30,220 nt of DNA from a virus. Below are positions 2,082-29,977 of the stretch, in pieces. The translations under genes were made by a program, and so were the position numbers. The DNA lies in the IMG/VR virus record IMGVR_UViG_3300046836_000582, positions 1-30,220 of that record. One strand, written 5' to 3'. The notes beneath the pieces were generated by a model. It saw only the letters and a program-made list of their open reading frames with translations, was not told the origin of the DNA and did no database searches. Positions within the stretch are counted from its first letter, which is position 1; each line of letters opens with the position of its first letter.

Positions 2082-3658
2082 TGTCTTGCACAGGATCAAC
2101 TCCGAATTATGTAGCCTCTGCTGATGCCGCCAGTATCCAGAGTTGCTTTAACAACGCAACTCATGCCAACGACACAATCACAATCGCGTCTGGGACAATT
2201 CATTTTACGACACCGCTCCATTGGGACACGATGGGCGCAAATGCAAGTCTGTTTGGATCAGGAAGTCTAAGCACAGACGGCGGCGGGGATGTCACAATTC
2301 TAATTGACGATGATACGAGTAACGAGGCGAAGATCCAATTTACTCCCGCTGCCACTGGAACATTTCGCCTAGCCGGTCTGACAGTGAAAGGTGGTTTAGG
2401 TTCCTTTTCCGATCAAGGGATTCTCAAAATAGGCGCTACCTCTGCAACAGTCCGGATAGATCATTTCCATTGGGACGGTACAACCTATTCTTCTCCAAAC
2501 ACACAGAAGTGGATTAACATTACCGGCAAAATTTATGGCGTAATGGATCACTGCGTTATCAAGACCCAGGATATTAGCTGGATCCACATGCAAAACGGAA
2601 GTGATAGCACCGGGGACGCGGATTGGGCAGCAGCAACTGGATTTGGCGGAGCGAACTTTTTCTTCATCGAGGACAACTCATTTGATTCAGTTCAAGCAGG
2701 ACCAAAAGATCAAGGGAGTGTCGTCGACTGCGCCACCGGTGGGCGTTTCGTTATTCGGTTTAATACTCTTGCTGGGAATAACATTGGCCAGACGCACCCA
2801 ACGGGTCACTCTAGTGATAATCGAGGATGTCGTGCAAGTGAGCAATACGGAAACCTGATTACAACATCTACAAGCGGATTCGAACCTGGATTCTGTATGG
2901 TCTGCAGCAATTCCGGCGCCGGACTTTACTGGAATAATACAGCTTCGAATGTTTTCAAAAACGTTTTCGATTTCTACGACGTTCGTATCGGCAACCAAGC
3001 AGACGGTCAGCCATATAACCAGACCGCTACTCCTGGCGGTTGGGGTAATCTGGGAACAGCACACGGTCCATCGAATTGGGACCGTAATGACGATGCTTCT
3101 GGTTATTACGGTATCGATATGCCAGGACGCGGAATTGGTGATTTACTGACCGGCCTTTTTCCATCAAAACTGAATAGCACGACATCCTCAATCCATCATC
3201 CAAATCAGGCTCTTGAACCAATCTATACATGGATGAATACCGCGTCAGTAGTTGCCGGATGGGGTGGAAGTTATTACAGTACCAGTAGCCCAGTTAACTC
3301 CGACCGAGACTATTATCAACAAGCCAGCGGTATCCAGACAAACGCGACGACGCCATTCAATGGCACCACCGGAACCGGCTGGGGAACACTTGCAAATCGC
3401 CCAACAACTTGTACGACAAGTAGCGAAAGCGGTGGCGGCGTCAGCTATTTTGCTACAGATCAAGGATCCTGGAATACGAGTCTATCTAACTCTCACGGAG
3501 TACAAATGAGCGGTGCCAGTGGCGTTCTCTATAAATGCACCGCAACAAACACGTGGTCACTCTACTACACACCATATACGTATCCACATCCGTTACAAGG
3601 AGTAGTCCCTGAAACGCAAGCACTTGCTAAGATGATTCCTATGAGGATGGTTTTGTAA
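2081..3658 (+). CDS. Right-handed beta-helix protein, probable tailspike (525 aa)
   Basis: The start is GTG, sharing one base with the preceding TAG, with AAAGGGA upstream. The sequence opens with a pattern typical of parallel beta-helix (pectate-lyase-like) proteins: an Asn/Ala/Thr-rich run, then short turns with repeated hydrophobic-x-hydrophobic strands (VTILIDDD, FRLAGLTVKGG, VRIDHFHWDG, YGVMDHCVIKTQ, FFIEDNSFDS, FVIRFNTLAGNN). Roughly residues 10-330 fit this fold. The remaining 190 residues are Ser/Thr/Gly/Trp-rich. Such proteins usually form trimeric tailspikes that bind or cleave surface polysaccharide. No catalytic residues can be assigned by eye. It heads a block of beta-rich genes, which supports a receptor-binding role. 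Confidence 0.75.
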   Translation: MSCTGSTPNYVASADAASIQSCFNNATHANDTITIASGTIHFTTPLHWDTMGANASLFGSGSLSTDGGGDVTILIDDDTSNEAKIQFTPAATGTFRLAGLTVKGGLGSFSDQGILKIGATSATVRIDHFHWDGTTYSSPNTQKWINITGKIYGVMDHCVIKTQDISWIHMQNGSDSTGDADWAAATGFGGANFFFIEDNSFDSVQAGPKDQGSVVDCATGGRFVIRFNTLAGNNIGQTHPTGHSSDNRGCRASEQYGNLITTSTSGFEPGFCMVCSNSGAGLYWNNTASNVFKNVFDFYDVRIGNQADGQPYNQTATPGGWGNLGTAHGPSNWDRNDDASGYYGIDMPGRGIGDLLTGLFPSKLNSTTSSIHHPNQALEPIYTWMNTASVVAGWGGSYYSTSSPVNSDRDYYQQASGIQTNATTPFNGTTGTGWGTLANRPTTCTTSSESGGGVSYFATDQGSWNTSLSNSHGVQMSGASGVLYKCTATNTWSLYYTPYTYPHPLQGVVPETQALAKMIPMRMVL

Positions 3659-7172: not shown

Positions 7173-8042
7173 ATGATTTGGAAAGATCCGATTCTACCGA
7201 AGATCGTCATTCCGTCTGATCTGAAGTCGAAATGGTTTCAACTTGGTAGTGCAAAATATCAACTCCTTCCCCATCAGTATGAGTTCCTGGCTGCAAAAGA
7301 GACTGAAGTCTGTAGCATGGGTGGATACGGTTCTGCGAAAACGTTCGGCGGGGTTCTTAAGGTCGCACATCTCGCAATGTTCCCGAACAACCGCGGGATC
7401 GTTGGCCGATTCGCTTCGACCGACCTGGAAGACACCACTGAACGCGATCTCTTAGACTTCCTTCACTCCGCGGAACTATTACACACAGCGCCAAATCAGC
7501 ACACCAAAAAAGCAATTGTGCGATGCGTGGATCCAGTCACGCAACGAAATCTTGGTTACTTTAGTGAGATCTCGTTTCAGCATATGGACGATCCGAAGCA
7601 TCTGCGCGGTCGACATATCGGTTACTATTGGATAGATGAAGCAAGTGAGGTTCACCCTGATGCGAAGAAAAATCTTGACGGTCGTACTCGTTGGAAGGCT
7701 TTTGCTGGCCGATACCAAAAGCTTTTTACAGGCAATCCAGAGGGCCATAACTATCTATATGATCGTTTCTTCAATAAAGACGAAATTCTTAAAGCAGTGT
7801 GCGGCCATCCAGAATGCACCCTCTCTCAAGAGCAATGCAACATCCAGCATATACGTCTTAAACGCCGAGGAATTCACGCGAAGACGTTCGACAACTACTT
7901 CTTAGCGAAAGACTACATTGAAGATATGCTTGCATCGTATAGCCCGAACGAGCGGCAGCGCTATATGGATGGCGACTTTGATATTTTTGAAGGCGCTGCC
8001 TTCCGTGAATTTGATCGCAACACACATGTACTGGCCATATGA
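7173..8042 (+). CDS. terL: Large terminase, ATPase subunit/domain (289 aa)
   Basis: This is the DNA-packaging motor ATPase. Walker A is GGYGSAKT (50-57), an unusual but known terminase form with Ala before the Lys. Walker B is YYWIDE (151-156), with catalytic Glu156, and the coupling motif LFTGNP follows (185-190). RBS GGAGG stands 6 nt before the ATG. A Cys/His cluster (C210, H212, C215, C222, H226) sits after the ATPase core and may bind a metal. The ORF stops right after FREFDRNTHVLAI, where ordinary large terminases continue into the RNase H-like nuclease. Here that part is a separate ORF overlapping by ATGA. Typical large terminases are 450-600 aa, and the two ORFs together give 546. Confidence 0.9.
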   Translation: MIWKDPILPKIVIPSDLKSKWFQLGSAKYQLLPHQYEFLAAKETEVCSMGGYGSAKTFGGVLKVAHLAMFPNNRGIVGRFASTDLEDTTERDLLDFLHSAELLHTAPNQHTKKAIVRCVDPVTQRNLGYFSEISFQHMDDPKHLRGRHIGYYWIDEASEVHPDAKKNLDGRTRWKAFAGRYQKLFTGNPEGHNYLYDRFFNKDEILKAVCGHPECTLSQEQCNIQHIRLKRRGIHAKTFDNYFLAKDYIEDMLASYSPNERQRYMDGDFDIFEGAAFREFDRNTHVLAI

Positions 8043-8812
8043 GCGAAACTTTTAAGGATTGGGAAAACGATATTCCGCCTCGATACTGGAAGCGGATCCT
8101 GGCAATGGACGTCGGAGGCGCCACAGCGAACGTCTTGGAATGGGCGGCACTGTGCCCAGAGACGCAATCGCTGGTGTTCTACGATGAAGTCCACAAAGTA
8201 ACGACAGACATGTCTGAAGTCGCGAAACTCGCGCTTCCGAAGATGAAACCGGAAGGATCACAGAATGAATACGAATTCATCGCTAAAGCCGGAGACTACG
8301 AGAACAAGATTGCCCTGGATGACATGGCCCGTCACGGGATCCGATTCACCAATGCGGTGAAGCAGAACAAGATTTTCAGTGTGCATCGCTTCGCTGGATA
8401 TCTTCATCCGAATCCGAAACGCCCGTATCCATCCTGGCACCCAATGGCGGGTCAGTACGGAGCCCCGCTGTTCTTTTCGACTCCGCGCTGTAAACATCTG
8501 AATGACGAGATCCCCCAGCAGAAGTGGAAGAACGAAGCGAAAGGAACGAGCGTCAAGGATGAACTCGATCGAACGGTAAAACATGATGCTGTCGACTGCG
8601 CTCTTTACATCGCGCGAATCATGCCAGCCCCGATTACAATTCCGATTTTAGTTCCGAAAATCCAAACCGAGACTCGCAGTTTGCAGAGTCAGATATATTG
8701 GGAGAACGTCAGGATGCAGGAAGAACGGAAGTCCAATGTGCAATCCAGGACTCCATACACGCCCGGACACGTAGGAGGCAACGATCAATGGCGATCATTA
8801 TTGGGATTTTAG
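8039..8812 (+). CDS. Large terminase, nuclease domain as a separate ORF (257 aa)
   Basis: This supplies the headful/end-cutting nuclease of the packaging motor. The RNase H-like fold is suggested by the first strand RILAMDVGG with Asp24, a second acidic site near GDYENK (Asp86), and the last acidic motif KHDAVDCALYIAR (Asp183/Asp186) in the place of the third catalytic Asp. It starts at an ATG overlapping the ATPase stop (ATGA) with no separate Shine-Dalgarno, so it is probably made by termination-reinitiation at a ratio near 1:1. It lies in the -1 frame relative to the ATPase ORF. A sequencing error, or a programmed frameshift giving a fused protein, cannot be excluded, but there is no X-XXY-YYZ slippery heptamer at the junction. 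Confidence 0.85.
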   Translation: MSETFKDWENDIPPRYWKRILAMDVGGATANVLEWAALCPETQSLVFYDEVHKVTTDMSEVAKLALPKMKPEGSQNEYEFIAKAGDYENKIALDDMARHGIRFTNAVKQNKIFSVHRFAGYLHPNPKRPYPSWHPMAGQYGAPLFFSTPRCKHLNDEIPQQKWKNEAKGTSVKDELDRTVKHDAVDCALYIARIMPAPITIPILVPKIQTETRSLQSQIYWENVRMQEERKSNVQSRTPYTPGHVGGNDQWRSLLGF

Positions 8813-8994: not shown

Positions 8995-9012
8995 CATAGG
9001 AGATTTCCTATG
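8995..9012 (+). promoter_or_regulatory. Hairpin pairing the ribosome binding site with the start codon
   Basis: CATAGGA (8995-9001) is the exact complement of TCCTATG (9006-9012), around the loop GATT. The left arm contains the AGGA of the ribosome binding site and the right arm contains the ATG of the protease gene. In the mRNA this would hide both signals, so protease translation may need unfolding or ribosomes arriving from upstream. Confidence 0.5.
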
Positions 9013-9612
9013 AAGAAGTTTATCGCTTGTCTGTGCATGGTCCTGATTTGCAGTTTGAGTTTCGCTGAAAAATCGCAGAGCGTTGCTCAGCAACTCTATG
9101 TTCCGGTTTTCTGCGCCGGTCAGCCAATGGGGACAGGATTCCCTGTTGATACGAATCTTCTAATGACTGCCGGTCATGTGCGATGTCCTGAAGGCGAAGC
9201 CACAACGATAAGCATCGACCACGGCAAGACATGGATTAGCGAGGAAGACTGGCTTGTGAGCGGCGATTTCGATGTGGCGATTCTGACGGTCACAGGGAAA
9301 CCCTTCAAAGAGTTTGCGCACTTCCGGGATCCGAAACTCGGAGAAACTGTATCCGGTTATGGAATTCCTTATGACGGTCTCCTGTCGACCGGAATCATTG
9401 CCCACCTGGAGGATTATTTCGTTTTCACAACGAATATTCCGATCGGCGGAATGAGCGGATCCGCAGTTGTCGGAACTGACGGAAAAGTTGTTGGAATGGT
9501 GAATTTCGGACTTCCGGATCAGCGAGTCGGTGGTACACTTTCTGGTGGGTATCAGGCAAAAGTCTTGACCGACCTAATCAAAAGTTTCAAAGAATTTAAG
9601 GGAGCAAAATAA
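9010..9612 (+). CDS. Secreted trypsin-like serine protease (200 aa)
   Basis: The protein starts with a Sec signal peptide (MKK, hydrophobic IACLCMVLICSLSF, cleavage likely after FA at residue 19). The chymotrypsin-fold triad is visible: His56 in MTAGHV, Asp88 in GDFDVAIL, Ser149 in GGMSGSAV (the G-x-S-G-S form seen in glutamyl-endopeptidase and HtrA-like enzymes). Strands around GTGFPVDTNLLMTAGH and the final VVGMVNFG also fit. The protein would act in the periplasm or outside the cell. It lies between a membrane protein and the lysozyme genes, so a role in lysis, envelope degradation or inactivation of host surface proteins is plausible. It is unlikely to be the capsid maturation protease because of the signal peptide. 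Confidence 0.85.
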   Translation: MKKFIACLCMVLICSLSFAEKSQSVAQQLYVPVFCAGQPMGTGFPVDTNLLMTAGHVRCPEGEATTISIDHGKTWISEEDWLVSGDFDVAILTVTGKPFKEFAHFRDPKLGETVSGYGIPYDGLLSTGIIAHLEDYFVFTTNIPIGGMSGSAVVGTDGKVVGMVNFGLPDQRVGGTLSGGYQAKVLTDLIKSFKEFKGAK

Positions 9613-28285: not shown

Positions 28286-28391
28286 CTTCGTCGATCCAAA
28301 ACCACTCAAGTTCAGTTCCGCGAAACTTATCAGGATTATCACCTTTCGGATAGATACACGGACATCCAGGGTAGTGTTGTATATGACTCAC
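28197..28391 (-). CDS. Small Pro-rich leftward protein (64 aa)
   Basis: GTG complementary to 28389-28391 overlaps the stop of the primase gene (GTGA), with GGAG 5 nt upstream. A GTG 6 bases earlier is an alternative. The product starts with SHIQHYPGCPCIYPKGDNPDKF and has a CxC and a highly charged and Pro-rich tail. Its last 30 codons are antisense to the holin-like gene, which weakens the case, but the coupling, ribosome binding site and non-random composition favour it. Function unknown. Confidence 0.5.
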   Translation of the reverse strand: MSHIQHYPGCPCIYPKGDNPDKFRGTELEWFWIDEVTEEESSHPDPQGKSVKPPREPRGPKLAS

Positions 28392-29977
28392 AACCACTCC
28401 ACAATACAGGAATTCGCAACCGGCAACAAGCGAAACTGAAAGACGTCGCCCTTCGCGGCATTCTTGACTTTCTCAATCTCCAATTCGTGCTTCAGCTCGT
28501 CCGCGCTGACCTTCCAAATAATCTCAAAGGCGCCTCCCATACCGCTCCACCCTCTCGGGCCACGCCCATCGGTCTTCCCTTCGTGGTGGATCAGCATAAT
28601 CATCGCGCCGGTAGCCTCGTACAGCTTATGGCAATACCCCAGCAGCTCACCCATCTCTTTGCCGGAATTCTCGTCCGCTCCTGGGGTTACCGCGGCCAAG
28701 GTGTCGAAGAAGATGATCGATGGCCGTTTTTCGCGTTTAATGGCCTTCAGGAGCGCCGTCTGGTGAGCCCTATCGATCAGTACCGGGGCGGTCGGAAGCA
28801 CCTTAATAGGTGCCGCTGAGGCTCCGCGTGCGGCTAATCCTGCGGCTAATCGTATCTGGATCCCACGATCGTCTTCCGCTGCCACATAGAGAATTGAGCC
28901 TTGCTTCACCGGTTGCCCCCTCCACGATTGGCCAAGGCTAATGGATAGAGCAAGATCCACCGCGGTAAAGGTCTTTCCAGCGCTGTGCTGGCCGTAAATG
29001 ACCCCAATTGCCGCCTCCGGCAGGACTCCTGGGATGATCCATTCGGGCTCCGGGCGCTTGAATAGCTCGTCGAGATTGAGGAATCGGAAGTCCAGCTCCA
29101 TTTTTTCAACCGGTTTCGATTCGAATAAGGTGGCTAATCCCTGTGAAACATCTTCAAAATCATCAACTGAAGCCTTGCTACCGCGTCTAAGAGAATCGAT
29201 AGTGATAGGAGTGTCAGACCGACCAAAAGATAGCCAATGGCTCTCAAGATCTTGACGCCCCTCATATTTATGACTCGTCGCACTCCATTCATCCCAGATT
29301 GCAAAACCGTCATTCGATCCTCCAGTGGCGTCGTGTATCGCCATTCCGATCTTTATCCATTCGTCGTATCCGCAGTTCGGATCCCGTTTAGACAAGAAGT
29401 TGACGATTTCAGGATTCGATGATTTCTGTGCCAAAACTCGGTCATCCCGTTGCTGTATATCTGATCCGAGTACCGATTTCCATAAGGCCAAAAGAGCATC
29501 CGGGATTGGCGGAAGATTCCTCCAGTCGCCAACCCATTCATAAGGTTTGCCGGTGTCCGGGTGGATGCTTGGAGGAAGTACATCTTGTACTGATGTGGAC
29601 TTGGATGTACCACAACGAAGTTCGAAGGCAGCGGGGCTACCGCAAAGAGAGATTGACGGTAATGGAGTCGCGAGCGCATAAATTAGTTTCCCCCTATTCG
29701 ATCTTCCGCTTTTGATTTGCACCGCGGCAGGATCGGCCAAAAGATCGGCCAAAACGATGCCGTGCTGCACCAAATAAGCAGCGGCTTCGTCCATCCGGTC
29801 CAAGTCCAATGAGCAAGTCCCGCTGTAGGCATGCAGCAAGCCTGCTCCGACAAGACCTTCCGGATTGGTAATAGCGTTCTTCTGCTCACTCCAGCCGGTA
29901 GTTCTTGGGCCTTTGGTTCCAGGAGGGATGGCACAAATCTTCCAGCCGTGCTGAATGTATTCCGCGAATTGTGTCAT
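28388..29977 (-). CDS. Replication protein: PrimPol domain plus RepA-like AAA helicase (529 aa)
   Basis: This is a primase-helicase for phage DNA replication. The N-terminal PrimPol domain (about 1-170) shows the LDLD catalytic acidic pair (58, 60) and the QDVLPPSIHPDTGKPYEW motif (131-148). The second PrimPol motif reads SGRSNRGKLIY (90-100) and lacks the usual His, a variant I believe occurs in other phage primases. A PriCT-2-like linker follows (about 190-265, DPNCGYDEWIKIGMAIHDATGG). The C-terminal ATPase has Walker A GQHSAGKT (329-336) and Walker B IIFFDT (Asp425), and a downstream HHEGKTDGRGPRGWSGMGG, as in RepA-type hexameric helicases. It is translated by TAATG coupling from the upstream gene. 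Confidence 0.88.
   Translation of the reverse strand: MTQFAEYIQHGWKICAIPPGTKGPRTTGWSEQKNAITNPEGLVGAGLLHAYSGTCSLDLDRMDEAAAYLVQHGIVLADLLADPAAVQIKSGRSNRGKLIYALATPLPSISLCGSPAAFELRCGTSKSTSVQDVLPPSIHPDTGKPYEWVGDWRNLPPIPDALLALWKSVLGSDIQQRDDRVLAQKSSNPEIVNFLSKRDPNCGYDEWIKIGMAIHDATGGSNDGFAIWDEWSATSHKYEGRQDLESHWLSFGRSDTPITIDSLRRGSKASVDDFEDVSQGLATLFESKPVEKMELDFRFLNLDELFKRPEPEWIIPGVLPEAAIGVIYGQHSAGKTFTAVDLALSISLGQSWRGQPVKQGSILYVAAEDDRGIQIRLAAGLAARGASAAPIKVLPTAPVLIDRAHQTALLKAIKREKRPSIIFFDTLAAVTPGADENSGKEMGELLGYCHKLYEATGAMIMLIHHEGKTDGRGPRGWSGMGGAFEIIWKVSADELKHELEIEKVKNAAKGDVFQFRLLPVANSCIVEWL

Follow-up and report, generated by a model that had tools for sequence, protein, structure and literature searches.

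In a viral DNA stretch of 30,220 bases (IMG/VR record IMGVR_UViG_3300046836_000582, classed as linear; this whole stretch is called the window in the following), the large terminase (TerL) is encoded by two overlapping genes. That is, the DNA-packaging enzyme, which in phages is normally one protein, is here distributed over an open reading frame (ORF) for the ATPase or motor part (7173..8042, plus strand, 289 amino acids) and another for the RNase H-type nuclease part (8039..8812, plus strand, 257 amino acids). The latter is in the -1 frame relative to the former and is entered at a 4-base stop/start overlap, ATGA (8039..8042). We consider it very likely that a Terminase_6-like gene was split at its linker and that reinitiation at the ATGA yields two polypeptides, which associate non-covalently on the portal. 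An earlier note, made from the sequence of the window, had already described two separate genes of together 546 codons with ATGA coupling; its coordinates are exact, and both the split and the ATGA recur in relatives. Neither in the window nor in these relatives does one ORF encode both domains, and the pair is therefore filed, by homology, as a split TerL variant and not as an ordinary TerL.

The first ORF, which is preceded by a GGAG Shine-Dalgarno (SD) sequence, matches the terminase large subunit family PHROG_2 (E-value 1.7e-24) as well as the Pfam models Terminase_6N (5.3e-11) and Terminase_3 (2.6e-08). It shows the motifs of a terminase-type ATPase, i.e., Walker A, Walker B (YWIDE) and the coupling motif (TGNPEG), all of which the earlier note had listed. 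Walker A is slightly deviant (GGYGSAKT, with Ala at the usual Gly); this form is found in three of the four split members known, and the remaining one (L011) has the usual GGYGSGKT. Apart from these motifs, the ATPase half carries a Cys/His cluster, CGHPEC......C (window 7800-7840, residues ~210-222), whose Cys/His positions do not vary among the four split members and which is possibly a small zinc site.

Searches with the window's two proteins each found the same two IMG/VR contigs (3300046472_000153 and 3300046796_000315), and a third split relative (3300010401_000326) was added by alignment searches. Compared to the window, they are 100/99, 84/67 and 74/64% identical in ATPase/nuclease, respectively. 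In all three relatives, which come from other samples than the window, both ORFs are intact, overlap by the four bases ATGA and place the ATPase stop four codons beyond the conserved FD...H motif. A pattern scan of the IMG/VR viral contigs for this motif and ATGA at the exact spacing gave three stretches, all of them in the three relatives. The plasmid search returned two weak matches, and the sole bacterial-genome match of the ATPase alignment, a Rhizobium locus (L017), maps to ORFs that are unrelated and was set aside as a chance match. The diverged members differ in sequence by 16-26% in the ATPase and by 33-36% in the nuclease. In the ATPase as well as in the nuclease, members differ from each other mostly at third codon positions; window and L003, for instance, differ 45/24/176 times at codon positions 1/2/3 of the ATPase and 64/46/147 times in the nuclease. 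Because changes fall mainly at third positions, both halves are maintained as protein-coding genes, i.e., judged from this substitution pattern each half is under purifying selection.

We also compared the location of the split with fused terminases. Here, 80 loci were read from at least 120 stretches listed by a scan for EGAAF.EFDR..H; the motif is biased to HMO-2011-like phages and the 80 loci are not a measure of split frequency among terminases at large. The frame runs on past FDR..H in all 80 (in a few, up to the contig end), and the spacing from the His to the catalytic Asp is 17 residues in each of them. The window's ATPase, which ends in ...EFDRNTHVLAI, stops four residues beyond the His that in fused terminases comes before the linker. 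Its nuclease starts with MSETFKDWENDIPPRYWKRILAMDVGG... at the place of ...IP.NW.KFRA.DYG... in the fused proteins. In split members, the ATPase ORF continues for 4 residues beyond the His and the nuclease ORF has 21-23 ahead of the Asp; compared to the 17 of fused terminases, the nuclease has thus gained about 8 residues at its N-terminus. The split sits in the interdomain linker, i.e., between FDR..H and the catalytic Asp, as the earlier note had suggested, and this location is conserved across the diverged members.

Among fused phages, even the nearest ones (HMO-2011, Roseobacter CRP phages and others) are only about 25-30% identical to the ATPase half, so that no fused relative found here is a close one. 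For fused relatives, which had been named as evidence against the split, the outcome is mixed: such forms exist among distant relatives at about this identity, while all close ones found are split. In HMO-2011-like podoviruses (HMO-2011 and CRP-1, whose ATPase half is about 28-30% identical), the Terminase_6-type enzyme likewise has ATPase and nuclease in collinear order with the same ATPase motifs, but is encoded by one ORF of about 520 amino acids instead of two. Since fused forms occur widely, we infer that the split is the derived state.

With regard to translation, no clear SD precedes the nuclease ATG. The two genes show what is expected of a translationally coupled (ATGA) pair, namely a conserved stop/start overlap and a second gene without strong SD. 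The only stretch of the window in which both frames are open spans 28 bases (8015..8042, plus strand), and no XXXYYYZ heptamer was found in this or any of the other members' frame overlaps (28, 28, 121 and 22 bases over the four). Furthermore, no Rfam family, introns included, was found in the window. Because slippery heptamer, clear nuclease SD and RNA family are all missing, translation that stops and restarts, with two polypeptides as the result, is the explanation we favour. Ribosomes would terminate at the TGA of the ATPase gene and start anew at the overlapping ATG, such that one mRNA would yield both polypeptides. These would associate non-covalently on the portal, where the ATPase polypeptide would drive DNA entry and the nuclease polypeptide would cut concatemers; as follows naturally from their separation, motor and nuclease halves would have to come together during packaging.

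The split could also be the scar of a lost mobile element (homing endonuclease or intron) that is now neutral. One relative (L003) has, directly upstream of its ATPase gene and overlapping it, an ORF of 153 amino acids (2534-2995, plus strand) whose Cys/His spacing looks HNH/endonuclease VII-like by eye. Furthermore, group I introns cut the terL genes of Jug phages, and for part of these genes RNA reads show restoration by splicing (PMC12363816). The terL of Jug phages is likewise spread over several ORFs, but due to introns, while the window has a 4-base ORF overlap, i.e., nothing lies between the two halves, no spliced intervening sequence separates the coding parts, and there is no Rfam match in the window. 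We thus regard a scar as unlikely, though it is an account of the origin and as such compatible with stop-restart expression of two polypeptides. Inteins are another known interruption of TerL (PMC7156551). The literature covered holds intron- and intein-interrupted terL and no intron-free two-gene TerL, but subscription journals are mostly outside this coverage, so that absence is not proven. Annotators of actinobacteriophages use the separate names 'terminase, large subunit, ATPase domain' and 'nuclease domain'.

The main rival for the expression of the two halves is a programmed -1 frameshift in the overlap, which would produce a fused terminase with the ATPase-only protein as minor or second product. 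The -1 position of the nuclease frame as well as the frame overlap in all four members agree with it, but the junction itself makes it improbable. Not only is a conserved slippery site missing from the overlaps, but the last ATPase codons (ATA, ATA, GTA and GCA) would also re-pair poorly after slipping back by one base. Outside the ATGA core, the junction is not conserved in sequence. That is, the element that was kept is a start codon, which frameshifting does not need.

The nuclease ORF has no Pfam model at E<=0.1 and no PHROGs match at E<=0.001 (the best PHROG, a terminase large subunit, is at E 0.1), and a PDB sequence search with it gave 0 matches. While the missing Pfam and PHROGs matches are what an unrelated downstream gene would show, we consider such a gene very improbable in view of profile comparisons. 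Hidden Markov models (HMMs) were built from 75 C-terminal and 68 N-terminal parts of the 80 fused terminases (given length cut-offs). The C-terminal HMM scores 16.9-18.8 bits in all four split members (17.1 for the window) compared to 6.7 bits for the best of 800 shuffled sequences, and the profile-profile probability of the nuclease is 82 versus the fused C-terminal halves and 1.6 versus the N-terminal ones. Using hhalign, the nuclease matches residues 284-471 of the terminase of Microbacterium phage Shocker (E 4.5e-6), and it is collinear with the catalytic Asp of fused terminases. The acids D24, D86/E88 and D183/D186 are invariant in all four members, such that homology and acids together point to an RNase H-type nuclease with three acidic positions. 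The catalytic residues of the nuclease, which the earlier note had considered kept, are in fact found as acids at the expected places, with their assignment to catalytic positions made by motif. They may be counterparts of the catalytic residues D401, E458 and D542 of T4 gp17 (PMC9958956). AlphaFold2 models of both halves, based on four-row alignments each, are poor (mean predicted local distance difference test score of 33.5 for the ATPase and 40.1 for the nuclease half).

A spurious indel, introduced by sequencing or assembly into a gene that is normally fused, would give such a picture in one contig through a single-base frame change, but is practically out of the question. The same junction is present in four contigs, each of a different IMG/VR record, and homologues at 64-84% identity are among them. 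Where L003 and L011 differ in length just behind the nuclease ATG, they do so by whole codons, which keeps the frame, and the same two intact frames with ATGA in all three relatives from other contigs exclude the artefact even without reads.

Some observations weigh against a split terminase acting as two polypeptides. All four split members are metagenome contigs, and they amount to three independent ones, as the proteins of the window and L002 are almost the same. The Pfam miss of the nuclease has to be counted here as well. Finally, the separated domains of T4 gp17 keep their activities but lose DNA translocation without the hinge (PMC9958956). A two-piece motor must have compensated for this, i.e., the lineage must hold the halves tightly or use a motor that does without the covalent link.

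Separately encoded halves were also found in bacterial genomes. When 190 genomes of a single class were drawn through an alphaproteobacterial genome, Terminase_6N gave 115 match rows, nine of them with an open frame under 350 residues; the loci of six of these nine were fetched (no sequence was read for G121 and G164). One alphaproteobacterial order has stand-alone Terminase_6C ORFs of 177-197 amino acids in all three genomes (G115, G194, G195), and their Terminase_6N matches lie in open frames of 257, 259 and 304 amino acids; G194 has a second Terminase_6N frame of 545 amino acids. At two loci (L156, 1-3501, in G115; L161, 1-4704, in G194), a Terminase_6N ORF (257/259 amino acids), a small ORF and a Terminase_6C nuclease ORF are found. 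ATPase and nuclease halves are thus likewise separate genes, but with a small ORF between them and within a terminase lineage that differs from the window's; moreover, the nuclease of L156 has its own SD, unlike that of the window. The halves are located on different contigs in G195 and in G010.

Another layout, the same in two genomes, shows a T7-like terminase (by eye) with an ATPase ORF of 202/211 and a lid-plus-nuclease ORF of 327/323 amino acids on the same strand (L163, G072:C4:152500-158700; L164, G192:C2:66800-73000). Here, the halves are ~3.2 kb apart with DnaB-like and XRE-like genes (by eye) between them on the other strand. Given the separately encoded halves in alphaproteobacterial and T7-like loci, split terminases seem to have arisen more than once. 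In G145, ORFs that by eye resemble resolvases and transposases come after the ATPase ORF, while G143 was ruled out as a split terminase, its short frame being a contig end.

Elsewhere in the window, a trypsin-like serine protease (9010-9612, plus strand, Pfam Trypsin_2) with a signal-peptide-like N-terminus is placed between the terminase and a phage lysozyme (9758-10180). On the opposite strand, 28388-29977 encodes a primase-polymerase with Prim-Pol, PriCT_2 and AAA_25 domains.

Models of DNA packaging, above all that of T4, place ATPase and nuclease on one chain with a hinge that has a role in force transmission. We tentatively raise the possibility, which we hold to be somewhat less probable than its opposite, that the nuclease is a separate, exchangeable subunit, bound non-covalently or only when DNA is cut at initiation and termination, in contrast to T4 with its need for a covalent hinge, and that the same solution was found independently in an alphaproteobacterial prophage-like or gene transfer agent (GTA)-like element. 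If true, the ATPase ring would drive DNA entry with a nuclease that is only non-covalently bound or only present at cutting steps. On the practical side, annotation and TerL phylogeny pipelines that demand a TerL of full length would overlook such genomes or cut them short. A lineage in which the hinge is cut would provide a natural test of whether a packaging motor needs covalent linkage, and the split also allows one to ask whether the nuclease dose is tunable independently of the motor.
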